A stretch of 64,000 bases of DNA from Halohasta litchfieldiae (GTDB lineage: Archaea; Halobacteriota; Halobacteria; Halobacteriales; Haloferacaceae), in NCBI RefSeq assembly GCF_002788215.1, contig NZ_CP024845.1, positions 2,666,001 to 2,730,000 on the forward strand, written 5' to 3'. The translations under genes and the position numbers were made by a program. The notes under the pieces are model-generated. The model saw only the letters and a program-made list of their open reading frames with translations. It was not told the origin of the DNA and ran no database searches. Of the stretch, positions 2,612 through 34,014 are shown one piece after another. Positions within the stretch are counted from its first letter, which is position 1, and the number at the start of each line of letters is the position of its first letter.

Positions 2612-3073
2612 GTGCCAATCGATCCGGCCGATTTCACCAGCTACTCGAAGGATCTGCTCCGGTGGTTCGTGCTCACCACCACCTACTTTCTGCTGGCACT
2701 GTTTCTGATCGGCCTGATTGATCTCGGTCTCGGCCTGTTTCAACTCATCGTCACCGGCGAATTCACCGACCCGGTGGCTGTTGTCAGCCTGATCGATACG
2801 GTCCTGTTGTTGTTGATCATACTCGAAGTCCATCGAACGCTCATTGCCTACGCAGCCGACGATCCGGTGTTGCCGATCATCGTTAGTGCGGCCATTATCG
2901 CCGTTGCGCGGCAGATCATCAGCTTCCGTGTCGACGAGTTCGGGACAACGAGAAACGCGCTTCCGGCAGCCCTCGGGCTGGCCGCGTTGCTGCTTGCTCT
3001 CGTGCTTGTCTTCCTTGCGGTTCGGTGGGATACGATGAAAGAAGGTGAATCGCCGTCCTCTCTACGGGAGTAG
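2612..3073 (+). CDS. PsiE-like small integral membrane protein
   Basis: 153 residues with four hydrophobic segments: about residues 20-45, 58-75, 88-108 and 125-145. The layout and the EVHRTLIAY loop resemble phosphate-starvation-inducible PsiE-family proteins; function is unknown. GTG 2612 (MPIDPADFTS) is chosen because an AT-rich box near 2577-2583 suits a leaderless start. An in-frame start at 2540 exists but would add a non-hydrophobic arginine-rich stretch. Confidence 0.6.
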   Translation: MPIDPADFTSYSKDLLRWFVLTTTYFLLALFLIGLIDLGLGLFQLIVTGEFTDPVAVVSLIDTVLLLLIILEVHRTLIAYAADDPVLPIIVSAAIIAVARQIISFRVDEFGTTRNALPAALGLAALLLALVLVFLAVRWDTMKEGESPSSLRE

Positions 3074-3104
3074 TCGACTCCGACTGAGAGGGCCTGGTAG
3101 CTAT

Positions 3105-3971
3105 TTATTCGCCGCTGCCTTTCTCAATGGGCGCGCCCACGAGGTTCCCCCACTCGGTCCAGGAACCATCGTAGTTGATGGCGTCCTCGTAGCCGAGCAG
3201 TTCGTGAAGCGCGAACCAAGCAACCGACGAGCGCTCGCCGATTCGGCAGTAGGCGACCGTCGTGCTGTCGCCGTCGATGCCTTTGTCGGCGTAGAGCGCT
3301 TCGATCTCATCAGCACTTTTGAAGGTGCCGTCCTCGTTGGTGACCGCAGCCCACGAGATGTTCTGTGCGCCGGGGACGTGGCCGCCGCGCTGGGCGGTCT
3401 CGTTGAGTCCTGGCGGTGCCAGGACCTCTCCCGAGAACTCCTCTGGAGAGCGAACGTCGACAAGTGGAAGACCCTTATCGATGGCGTTGTCGACATCGTC
3501 GCGGTAGGCTCGGATGGACTCTCGTGGACCGGAGGCAGTGTAGTCGACTGCCGAGAAGTCGGGCTCCTCGTCGGTCACTGAGTAGTCGTTGTCGAGCCAG
3601 TACTCGCGGCCGCCGTCGAGGAGTTTCACGTCGTCGTGGCCGTAGTATTTGAACTGCCAGTAGGTGTAGGCCGCAAACCAGTTGGCGTTGTCACCGTAGA
3701 GGACGACCGTCGAGTCCTCGCTGATGCCGTGGGAGCCGAGCAGGTCCTCGAAGTCGTCCTTCGTGAGGATGTCTCGGGTTGTCTGATCCTGAAGCTGGGA
3801 TTCCCAGTTGAAGCCGATAGCACCGGGGGCGTGACTCTCGTCGTAGGCCTCGGTGTCGACGTCGACTTCGACCAGGCGATAGTCGGAATCGTCGCTCTGG
3901 AACTCTTCGAGGTGGTCTTCGACCCAGTCGGCCGAGACCAGCACGTCTTTTGCGTAATCTGAATCTGCCAT
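3105..3971 (-). CDS. thiosulfate sulfurtransferase (two-domain rhodanese)
   Basis: 288 residues made of two rhodanese domains. The C-terminal active-site loop is CRIGERSS with the catalytic cysteine at about residue 242. The inactive N-terminal domain carries the usual VLYGDNANWFAAY-type strand. It would move sulfane sulfur from thiosulfate or 3-mercaptopyruvate to acceptors in the cytoplasm. It is divergent from a second rhodanese at 4223; the roughly 250 bp between them should carry both promoters. Confidence 0.9.
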   Translation of the reverse strand: MADSDYAKDVLVSADWVEDHLEEFQSDDSDYRLVEVDVDTEAYDESHAPGAIGFNWESQLQDQTTRDILTKDDFEDLLGSHGISEDSTVVLYGDNANWFAAYTYWQFKYYGHDDVKLLDGGREYWLDNDYSVTDEEPDFSAVDYTASGPRESIRAYRDDVDNAIDKGLPLVDVRSPEEFSGEVLAPPGLNETAQRGGHVPGAQNISWAAVTNEDGTFKSADEIEALYADKGIDGDSTTVAYCRIGERSSVAWFALHELLGYEDAINYDGSWTEWGNLVGAPIEKGSGE

Positions 3972-30275: not shown

Positions 30276-31481
30276 ATGACACAAATCAGCTCAGTTTCCC
30301 TACGACGTGTGCTCGACTCCCGTGGCAACCCCACGGTTGAAGCGGATGTACTCACCGAATCCGGCGGCTTCGGCCGTGCGGCAGCGCCCTCGGGCGCTTC
30401 GACCGGCGAGTACGAGGCAATCGAACTCCCGGCCAACGAGGCGATTGCCAACGCGAGAGAACATGCGGTCCCCCGACTCGTCGACACCGTCTACGCTGGC
30501 GACCAGCGCGCGGTCGACGGCGCACTTCGTGCCGCAGACGGCACGGATAACTTCTCGGAGATCGGCGCAAACAGCGCGGTCGCCATCTCGATGGCCGCCG
30601 CAAAGGCCGGCGCAGACGTGCTCGGTGCCCCGCTGTACCAGCACCTCGGCGGCGCGTTCCGCGGCGACAACTTCCCGATTCCGCTCGGGAACGTGATTGG
30701 CGGCGGCGAACACGCCAAAGACGCCACCGATATCCAAGAGTTCCTCGCCGCACCCGTCGGTGCGCCGAGTGTCGAAGAGGCCGTCTTCGCTAACGCGAAA
30801 GTCCACGGCGAGGCTGGCAACATCCTCGACGAGCGTGGCATCGGCGCAGGCAAAGGCGACGAGGGTGCATGGGCACCCCCGATTTCGGACGCCGAAGCCT
30901 TCGAGATCATGGAGGAGGCGACCTCCCGCGTTTCGGAGGCGGTCGGCTTCGAGATCCGATTCGGACTCGACGTTGCAGCCACCGAGATGTACGACGAGGA
31001 CAGCGACTCCTACGTCTACAGCGACGAAGAGAAGTCGACCGACGAGCAGATCGAGTATATGGTCGATCTGGTCGAGGAGTACGACCTCGCGTATGTCGAG
31101 GACCCACTCGACGAGAACGACTACGAGGCGTTCGCCGAGATCACCGAGCTGGTCGGTGACCGGACGATGATCTGTGGTGACGACCTGTTCGTGACCAACG
31201 TCTCGCGGCTCGAAGAGGGAATCGAAACCGGCGCTGGCAACAGCATCCTCATCAAACCAAACCAGATCGGTTCGCTGTCGGATACCTTCGACGCGATCGA
31301 ACTGGCGGTTCGAAACGAGTACAAGACGATCATCTCTCACCGCTCGGGCGAAACCGAAGACACGACGATTGCACACCTCGCGGTCGCAACCGACGCCGAC
31401 TACATCAAGACCGGCACGGTTGCGGGCGAGCGAACCGCCAAGCTGAACGAACTTATCAGAATCGCGGAAGACGCAGTATGA
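30276..31481 (+). CDS. eno: enolase
   Basis: 401 residues. [16 protein letters not shown] and [13 protein letters not shown] form the N-terminal capping loops. The barrel has [47 protein letters not shown] and [10 protein letters not shown] with the catalytic lysine and metal acidic residues. It converts 2-phosphoglycerate to phosphoenolpyruvate. It overlaps rps2 by ATGA; its place among ribosomal genes is conserved in haloarchaea. Confidence 0.97.
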
Positions 31482-32257
31482 GCGACAACGAAACCGAAAC
31501 CGTAGAGACACAGGACGAGCCCGACGAGGTCGACGAGGCCCCAGTCGACGACGAGCCTGTCGAAGCCGAACCGGACGCCGAGGAGTCTGCCGACGAGGCA
31601 GCCGCCGAGGCCGAACCAGAAGACGAGGAAGAAGAGGAGTCCTCGCCGTTCGATGACAATGTCATGCCGGACGACGATGTCGACCTCCTCATCCCCGTCG
31701 AGGACTACCTCAGCGCAGGTGTCCACATCGGGACCCAACAGAAGACCAAGGACATGGAGCGGTTCATCCACCGCGTCCGTGACGACGGTCTTTACGTCCT
31801 CGATGTGAGCCAGACCGACAGCCGCATCCGCACGGCGGCTGACTTCCTCGCGGGCTACGACCCAGAGCAGGTGCTTGTCACCTCCTCGCGGCAGTATGGT
31901 CGATTCCCAGCCGAGAAGTTTGCCGAGGCAATCGGCGCACGCGCTCGCACGGGTCGGTTCATCCCCGGCACGCTGACCAACCCCGACTACGCAGGCTACA
32001 TCGAGCCTGACGTGCTTGTGGTTACGGACCCAATCGGTGACGCCCAAGCGGTCAAAGAGGCGATCACGGTTGGCATCCCGGTCATCGCAATGTGTGACTC
32101 GAATAATCAGGTCAGCAACGTCGACCTGGTTATCCCGACGAACAACAAGGGTCGACGCGCGCTGTCTGTCGTCTACTGGCTGCTGGCCAACGAGACGCTC
32201 GACCGCCGCAACGCTGGCACGATGTTCGCGCTCGAAGACTTCGAAGCCGACCTATAA
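31478..32257 (+). CDS. rps2: 30S ribosomal protein uS2
   Basis: 259 residues. The first roughly 60 are almost entirely Asp, Glu, Ala and Pro, a haloarchaeal acidic extension absent from most uS2. The core has [35 protein letters not shown] and [15 protein letters not shown]. It is the last gene of the block; a T7 run follows at 32278. Confidence 0.97.
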
Positions 32258-32284: not shown

Positions 32285-32320
32285 GGCGTAGTAATAGTCT
32301 GAATAGTCTCAACTGTTAAC

Positions 32321-32580
32321 AACCAGAAAGCCCCGGCAGGCTCCAGTCGAGGGCCTCGCTGCGGTCTTCACTGCGTTGCGGTCCTTGCATCGGCCGTCTT
32401 CCCGGAGCCTGCCGCCCCTTTCAACCCACCCACAGCAGGTAGATCAGCCACAATGGGTGGGACTGAAAGGGGCCGCCGTCTCGACGAACCCCGACGACGT
32501 AAGCACCGGAAGAGCGAACGCAGTGAGTGACGAGGAGCGCAACGAGTCGCGGGAGTCGAGACGGCGGGGGCTTTCTGGTT
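32321..32580. repeat. 260-bp nested inverted-repeat (MITE-like) element
   Basis: The outer ends aaccagaaagcccc (32321-32334) and ggggctttctggtt (32567-32580) are perfect 14-bp inverted repeats. Inside, gcccctttca plus cccaccca near 32410-32430 pairs with tgggtgggactgaaaggggc near 32453-32472. Between these, ctcgctgcggtcttcactgcg on the left mirrors cgcagtgagtgacgaggagcgc on the right. No credible ORF is present. It fills most of the gene-free 32258-32688 interval. It may be a non-autonomous transposable element or a large cruciform/RNA structure. Confidence 0.7.
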
Positions 32581-32688
32581 CTCTAAAATCTCTATGGCTG
32601 AATTTAGATCTGTCACACTAAACTCAGATCAAACACGAACCTTGTTCGATGGCCAACAGTCATATCTGTTGACTCCCAACGCCGGGAC

Positions 32689-34014
32689 ATGGATGGGCAG
32701 CTCCCGGGAGCCACCGTCGACTCCGAGGACCGAATCATCCTCCACGTCGACATGGACTGCTTTTATGCCTCCTGTGAGCGGCTGCGAGAGCCCGCCCTCG
32801 AAGGGAAGCCTGTCGTCGTTGGGATGGGATACGAACCCGGCGAGGGCCACGGCGCGGTGGCCACCGCCAGCTACGAAGCCCGCGAGTACGGCGTCGAGAG
32901 CGCCCAAGCCATCGGCCAAGCCCTCGACGCACTCCCCCATGCACCAGACGTCGACGATGACCACGATGGCCCAGTCGGCTTCTACCGGTCGGTCGACATG
33001 GACTTTTATAAATCGGTCGCGGGCGACGTGAAGGAGATTCTCCACGACCACGCCAACACGGTGCGGGAGGTGAGCATCGACGAGGCGTATCTCGACGTGA
33101 CCAACCGGACGAGTTGGGACCCAGTCGACAGTGGTGACCGGACCATCGCCGAGGGCTACGGCCGCCATATCAAACAGCAGATCAGCCGCGAGGTCGGCGT
33201 CCCCGCCAGCGTCGGGGTCGCGCCGAACATGTCGACCGCGAAAATCGCCAGCGATTTCGACAAACCGAATGGGCTGACGGTTGTCCGACCCACTGAAGTC
33301 AGTGCGTTTCTCGATCCGCTGCCGGTCGACGAGATCCACGGCGTCGGCCCGGTGACAGCGCGTGAACTCCGTGATCTGAGTATCGAGACCGCGGGTGATC
33401 TGGCCGACGCCGATCAGGGGGTGATCGTCGACCAGTTCGGCCAGCGCGGTCGGGAACTCTACGCTCGCGCTCGCGGCGAGGACGACCGCGAGGTGACGCC
33501 ACAGGGCCGACCCAAAAGTCTCTCACGGGAGTCGGCGTTCACCGAGTCGACCGCCGACAGCGAGGCCAAACGGGAAAAAGTGGGCGCACTGGCGGCGGAT
33601 GTGGCCGCCCGCGCCCAAAGTCGGGGTGCGATGTACCGGACGATTGGCATCAAGGTCGTGACGCCCCCGTTCGATGTCAACACGCGAGCGTCGTCGTTAT
33701 CGGGGCCGGTCGACGAACCTGATCTCGTCGAGTCGGTCGCACTGGATCTTCTGACCGAGTTCGCTGACGACAAGGTTCGGAAACTCGGCGTCCGTGTCTC
33801 GAACCTCGATTTTGAGGGCCAAGATCAGGCTCGACTCGATGGGTTCGAGTCGACTGGCGGAGGGGGTGCGATTGAGAGAGACGTGGAGTCGGTCGAGACC
33901 GTCGACACCTCGGGAGGTCAGATTACGGATTGGGTTGAGGAGGGTGAGTCGACGGAGTCCGATACAAAACGGAGGGTGCGTGACGGACAGTCGTCGCTCG
34001 GAGAATTTGAATAA
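32689..34014 (+). CDS. dinB: Y-family DNA polymerase IV with PCNA-binding tail
   Basis: 441 residues. DMDCFYASCE (residues 21-30) and SIDEAYLDVT carry the catalytic acidic residues; DEIHGVGPVTARELRDL is the HhH in the thumb, followed by the little-finger domain. The C-terminus is a flexible acidic linker ending GQSSLGEFE, a PIP-box-like PCNA-docking peptide (Q-x-x-L-x-x-F). It performs translesion synthesis. catatc at 32661 may be a weak TATA box for ATG 32689. The same tail is found in the small ORF at 37830. Confidence 0.93.
   Translation: MDGQLPGATVDSEDRIILHVDMDCFYASCERLREPALEGKPVVVGMGYEPGEGHGAVATASYEAREYGVESAQAIGQALDALPHAPDVDDDHDGPVGFYRSVDMDFYKSVAGDVKEILHDHANTVREVSIDEAYLDVTNRTSWDPVDSGDRTIAEGYGRHIKQQISREVGVPASVGVAPNMSTAKIASDFDKPNGLTVVRPTEVSAFLDPLPVDEIHGVGPVTARELRDLSIETAGDLADADQGVIVDQFGQRGRELYARARGEDDREVTPQGRPKSLSRESAFTESTADSEAKREKVGALAADVAARAQSRGAMYRTIGIKVVTPPFDVNTRASSLSGPVDEPDLVESVALDLLTEFADDKVRKLGVRVSNLDFEGQDQARLDGFESTGGGGAIERDVESVETVDTSGGQITDWVEEGESTESDTKRRVRDGQSSLGEFE

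Follow-up and report, generated by a model that had tools for sequence, protein, structure and literature searches.

The palindromic 260 bp between the genes of ribosomal protein S2 and DNA polymerase IV in Halohasta litchfieldiae (positions 32321 to 32580 of the window, the whole 64,000-nucleotide stretch that was analyzed) is probably the conserved core of a longer insertion. We consider it likely that this insertion is an old, non-autonomous transposable element of the Halobacteriales, in which a conserved folded core lies within outer arms with IS6-like tips, and which is moved by an IS6 transposase acting in trans. Archaeal miniature elements are usually seen as tips plus filler, whereas in this family it is the filler that is conserved, as a covarying, strand-biased, and order-wide fold of which one 2.6-Mb genome has as many as 95 matches. 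This provides a testable case of a mobile element carrying, or carried by, a structured RNA, and the annotation of many haloarchaeal intergenic regions would improve.

Architecture of the element in the window

A sequence-only reading of the region had described perfect 14-bp inverted repeats that enclose further mirrored segments and no gene, placed between rps2 and dinB, and each of these observations was confirmed. The repeats AACCAGAAAGCCCC (32321 to 32334, plus strand) and GGGGCTTTCTGGTT (32567 to 32580, plus strand) match exactly, and four further inverted-repeat pairs are nested between them. Two mechanical open reading frames (ORFs) of 81 to 82 amino acids cross the 260 bp with no sign of being genes, and a transposase gene is absent from the element, which holds chance ORFs only. 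Both neighboring genes lie on the plus strand and are named by NCBIfam as ribosomal protein S2 upstream (31478 to 32257; TIGR01012) and DNA polymerase IV (dinB) downstream (32689 to 34014; NF002677). An Rfam scan of the window at gathering cut-offs returned two tRNAs only and left the element unmatched.

The 260 nt fold with a predicted energy of −149.3 kcal/mol, compared to a mean of −105.0 (standard deviation, 5.5) for 200 dinucleotide shuffles (z = −8.0), none of which folded as well. In the predicted fold, a closing stem carries three hairpin arms, of which the first and third are homologous, being copies of one ∼116-nt unit (layout GGGTGGGACTGAAAGGGG-stem-hairpin-stem-GGGGCTTTC) read on opposite strands. 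The middle arm forms a short hairpin at the center, and the core is built of two hairpin units placed head to head around it. A model built from 37 units (R1) located the first unit at 32326 to 32430 on the minus strand (103.1 bits) and the second at 32457 to 32575 on the plus strand (124.4 bits). Units are typed by their second stem on alignment columns, and the two belong to types b and a, respectively. The central hairpin CCCACCCA/TGGGTGGG (32425 to 32461, plus strand) is drawn from the predicted fold and from the gaps between paired units, which measure 22 to 39 nt in 57 of the 75 minus-then-plus pairs listed. Of 14 doubles typed in this way, 12 are a plus b and 2 are a/a, and overall 56 units are of type a, 52 of type b, and 7 of another kind. 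The widest minus-then-plus pairs span 944 nt (L106, with two short called ORFs between the units) and 6921 nt (L126), and neither makes a convincing candidate for an autonomous element in which units bracket a gene.

Distribution among haloarchaea

The BLASTN search that the sequence-only reading had proposed found the element at five places in the source genome and in 37 of 60 relatives. Model R1 recognized six units in the source genome, the sixth being weak (42 bits), and it matched 40 of the 60 relatives and left 20 without a match, with the best 60 candidates scored per genome and several genomes at or near that number. When the best 150 candidates were scored, 91 units were counted in Haloarcula rara and 95 in Halonotius roseus. 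Among 120 genomes drawn from the phylum, R1 matches occurred in 17 of the 19 that belong to the same order (the source genome included) and in none of the 101 others. A pattern scan of named genomes returned at least 120 stretches, and the 80 titles among the matches listed are all haloarchaeal by name. The 31 plasmid records with a match likewise bear haloarchaeal organism names; 26 of these matches lie off any annotated gene, 3 lie on a hypothetical protein, and 2 are in unannotated records. Phage records gave no match to the element, and viral contigs gave no exact match to its pattern. Searches of the open-licence PMC literature, where absence is weak evidence, brought up no description of the element sequence, and one with sequence strings returned no archaeal paper by title. 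One genome (G018, C2, 2675891 to 2733909; L305 to L308) carries seven units within 58 kb, three on the minus strand followed by four on the plus strand, some of them nearly identical; only called, unannotated ORFs accompany them, in no pattern that could be named.

Mobility in Halonotius and the link to IS6

In Halonotius roseus, two elements at unlinked places (L255 and L256) share 95.4% identity over 327 nt, and the similarity stops ∼40 nt beyond the units, where the tips include CTGAACAGTACC and CTGAACACGACC. The Halonotius elements around the core measure ∼339 bp and end in IS6-like tips. A perfect 8-bp direct repeat at the expected distance flanks 5 of 13 Halonotius roseus doubles and none of the mismatched-end controls, in which the left end of one double was paired with the right end of another; a repeat of at least 7 of 8 positions flanks 8 of 13 (controls: mean 0.8, maximum 4), leaving 5 of 13 without one. 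Two sites, L254 and L258, are empty in all four congeners compared (G025, G069, G071, and G072; G070 is the Halonotius roseus genome itself, with a 100% match). At the L254 site the flanks join with a 9-nt overlap in G025 and G069, and the target CACCGATC, present once in G025, is found as CAACGATC twice at L254. Similarly, CGCCGCAG occurs once in G072 and CGTCGCAG twice at L258. In the other congeners the flanks do not join exactly at the compared empty sites.

Halonotius roseus has 17 occurrences of the pattern GTGTTCAGATAAG and the source genome has two (reversed control, 0 in both). Between one pair of these sites, a 213-codon ORF encodes an IS6-family transposase, which scores 189 bits with NF033587 (cut-off, 125) and matches Pfam DDE_Tnp_IS240. 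The IS6 model matched nine times in the source genome and four times in Halonotius roseus, with four and one of these above the curated cut-off, respectively, and had no match in the Haloarcula rara genome. Two IS6-family loci of the source genome, L360 and L364, have the tips GGYACTGTCTAG, and an 8-bp direct repeat, TGCTCAGG, stands at the ends of L360.

The IS6-tip motif was counted 20 to 60 nt outside the units, where its occurrences number 34 at 54 ends in Halonotius roseus (0.2 expected), 1 at 41 ends in Haloarcula rara (0.5 expected), 2 at 12 ends in the source genus (the L005 copy accounts for both), and 29 at 214 other ends (0.8 expected). In the same interval, CTAG occurs 20 times in Haloarcula rara (1.2 expected) and 36 times at the 214 other ends (2.2 expected). 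The counts for these 214 ends are slightly too high because a few repeats of the listed genomes remain among them (L186 is L260 of Halonotius roseus, and L009 is the L005 copy of the source genome). Since Haloarcula rara is rich in units, has CTAG ends, and yielded no IS6 gene, IS6 cannot be the sole mobilizer. Two or more kinds of outer tip are thus joined to the core, which seems to be a module in its own right, being found with other tips in Haloarcula.

The simplest view of the element is that of a miniature element of IS6 type whose core is conserved. In the IS6 family, target repeats are described as 8 bp long and tips as carrying GG and a cTGTt motif, and two IS6-family MITEs, of 227 and 336 bp, are given for ISfinder (PMC7986276). 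The element resembles these in its lack of a gene, its dispersed copies, and the presence of an IS6 transposase gene in the source genome and in Halonotius roseus, and its Halonotius copies do so in their IS6-like tips, 8-bp target duplication, and length (∼339 bp); it differs from them as they are described there in its long, covarying, strand-biased core, its sharing across genera, and its use of other tips too. Small mobile repeats (SMRs), MITEs, and PATEs have been reported from Haloquadratum walsbyi (PMC3119063). The likeness to these is in the haloarchaeal host, the ∼110-nt repeats with inverted ends (SMR-A), the many copies, and the nested insertions; by the description in that source, SMRs insert without a target duplication and PATEs are devoid of terminal inverted repeats, while the Halonotius roseus elements have duplications, so they depart from the SMR pattern of inverted ends without one.

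In the mechanism that we favor, the core of two unlike ∼116-nt units, head to head around the central hairpin, would travel within outer arms that end in tips similar to the ends of IS6-family insertion sequences and would insert with 8-bp target duplications, as the elements of relatives indicate. The IS6-family DDE transposase of a full insertion sequence may act on these tips in trans, and inserted copies would then decay in place, often with the loss of one unit. In Haloarcula, the core presumably also rides a mobile chassis with other tips.

The window copy as a probable old insertion

The rps2-dinB spacer measures 432 bp in the window and 84 bp in the congener G002, which lacks the element, and homology to G002 on the right picks up again just after 32641. 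The right outer arm (32581 to 32641, plus strand), read inward, starts with GGTTCGTGTTTGAT, close to the tip GGCCGTGTTTAGAT of Halonotius L254, and by-eye comparison marks its outer end as a probable decayed IS6-like tip. The left end is placed near 32285 to 32291 from the G002 comparison, in which the left alignment is poor, and from a weak tip resemblance; two IS6 elements of the source genome have the tips GGCACTGTCTAG and GGTACTGTCTAG, to which the left arm in the window is only loosely alike. The right tip is probable and the left one weak, and the full, unstranded insertion is put at a probable 32291 to 32641, with old, decayed ends accurate to about 10 nt. G001 and G003 are uninformative on an empty site because a different sequence stands after rps2 in both. 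Judged from these comparisons, the copy in the window appears to have inserted long ago, in the manner of the Halonotius elements.

The suggestion of a MITE-like element made by the sequence-only reading holds for the family, which has dispersed copies, two Halonotius empty sites, 8-bp duplications, and IS6 transposase genes, and is weaker for the window copy, where no clear target duplication was seen and the left tip is weak. The 14-bp repeats, which that reading took as terminal, are not the mobile tips; these sit 30 to 60 nt further out. An autonomous insertion sequence with ends matching these repeats was not found, the 14 bp not having been searched alone.

Genomic context and turnover of units

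We listed 249 distinct elements, 210 single and 39 double, of which 39 overlap a called ORF. Genes were taken from a home-made ORF caller that was checked on the window and on four annotated plasmid loci, where it was partly wrong on the left of one (L211). One orthologous site is occupied by a double in one Haloarcula and by a single in a second (L235 and L230), another such site retains different units (L244 and L229), and a third shared site (L019 and L275) shows stem changes on both sides. Such copies at the same site in different species argue for slow turnover. On five of the eight plasmids examined, all five haloarchaeal, a unit has the same position upstream of the gene of an OB-fold DNA-binding protein (L207, L208, L209, L210, and L214, near 2900 to 3610), where it ends a partly conserved non-coding region of ∼600 nt.

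Retention at shared sites, the constant position beside the OB-fold gene, and strong covariation would also be expected if the unit were a resident structured RNA or a 5′-region regulator of host genes, found in mobile DNA only by chance in some species. In 107 of the 169 usable singles, the 3′-side gene is oriented away from the unit, which agrees with such a role. Empty sites and target duplications speak against it, as do neighbors that vary from copy to copy and the 20 relatives devoid of units, and we regard this explanation as unlikely.

A comparably improbable alternative is that the element carries a transcription insulator or terminator, working at the DNA or RNA level. The hairpins are very stable, and doubles lie between genes and beside promoters, with 0 of 34 usable ones in convergent gaps compared to 62 of 301 other gaps longer than 100 bp. 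A terminator should be frequent in just those convergent gaps, and the units as terminators, our first guess, were set aside for this reason; in addition, the gene on the 5′ side shows no bias toward the unit strand (directed towards the unit in 82 of 169 usable singles, by the home-made ORF calls).

The element also resembles bacterial REP, BIME, and REPIN sequences in having palindromic units that form inverted pairs around a short spacer, in its mixture of singles and doubles, in its intergenic location, and in its high copy number. In a REPIN-like origin, an HUH (Y1) transposase would mobilize head-to-head hairpin pairs in the form of single-stranded DNA, and singles would be what is left after decay; this would accommodate the unit loss at shared sites and the strand-biased folding. 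REPINs are not known to make a target duplication, whereas the Halonotius roseus elements do, and the 8-bp duplications and IS6-like tips indicate a DDE transposase. The units, at ∼116 nt, are also far from the 20 to 40 bp given for REPs (PMC3733652), and we consider this origin quite unlikely.

Covariation and strand bias of the core

An RNAalifold analysis of 37 units in a sequence-only alignment predicted 34 pairs, 29 of which have at least one two-sided change. When 115 units (114 distinct) were aligned to R1, 96.6% of the cells pair, and two-sided changes number 795 (shuffles, 226). The covariation score of 0.541 compares with 0.143 after shuffling and with 0.03 to 0.05 when the partner is slid by 1 to 3 columns; this alignment leans towards R1 because it is fitted to the model. 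The helices thus covary beyond the controls, as in the structured RNAs of Rfam, with which the units also share the tolerance of G.U on one strand; the element in the window matches no Rfam family at gathering cut-offs.

In unit orientation, the R1 alignment contains 119 G.T and 18 A.C pairs. When first-stem pairs were counted from sequence anchors alone, with gapless pairing, 231 of 296 units were usable and gave 65 G.T and 13 A.C at the inner positions, or 42 to 12 by subtraction of one G.T-rich position. Because a strand-blind palindrome should give equal numbers, the tolerance of G.T over A.C suggests that one strand of the unit seems to be under selection. Strand-biased mutation could also yield or add to the G.T excess, but would not keep the pairs. 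The counts suggest that folded RNA, or single-stranded DNA, formed from the inner hairpins matters, and the selected form is most likely a single strand, with RNA read across the element the simplest candidate and single-stranded DNA fitting the counts too. Of the two structural alternatives offered by the sequence-only reading, the large structured RNA gains from the strand-biased covariation, and the plain cruciform does not predict that bias. The four G-runs around the hairpin (GGG, GGG, GGGG, and GGGG) are all of length 3 or longer in 220 of the 293 units from fetched loci, and a group of 27 among these has runs of 2, 2, 3, and 3; the conserved runs could form a G-quadruplex read by a protein of the host or the element.

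The core must matter for itself, since it is kept with different tips and shows strand-biased selection. Our leading guess is that the folded strand shapes or stabilizes transcripts that cross the element and would so lessen the harm to neighboring genes. A further reading, which we think less likely than not, is that the ∼116-nt unit represents a new haloarchaeal class of structured nucleic acid, probably RNA, that forms a module swapped between mobile chassis, with the a/b pairs as its mobile core; candidate chassis are the IS6-like tips in Halonotius, the CTAG-type ends in Haloarcula, and plasmids beside the OB-fold gene. A functionless DNA palindrome, extruded only as a cruciform and perfected by template switching between arms, would explain stems that change in step, and nearby tandem tip duplications suggest hairpin slippage, but it is very improbable given the conserved mismatches and bulges that were not converted to perfect pairs and the excess of G.T over A.C.

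Sequences nested in and repeated beside the units

The 3′ tip GGGGCTTTCTGG, or a variant of it, is repeated in tandem outside the element together with 30 to 60 nt of flank at L018, L184, L194 (four or more times), L286, L292, L294, L296, and L297. By eye, a second element of ∼60 to 70 nt with two hairpins is inserted within units, often at the same spot beside GACG/AAGCACC, at L005 (source genome, near 659 kb), L257, L285, L286, L288, L289, L291, L297, L298, and L300.
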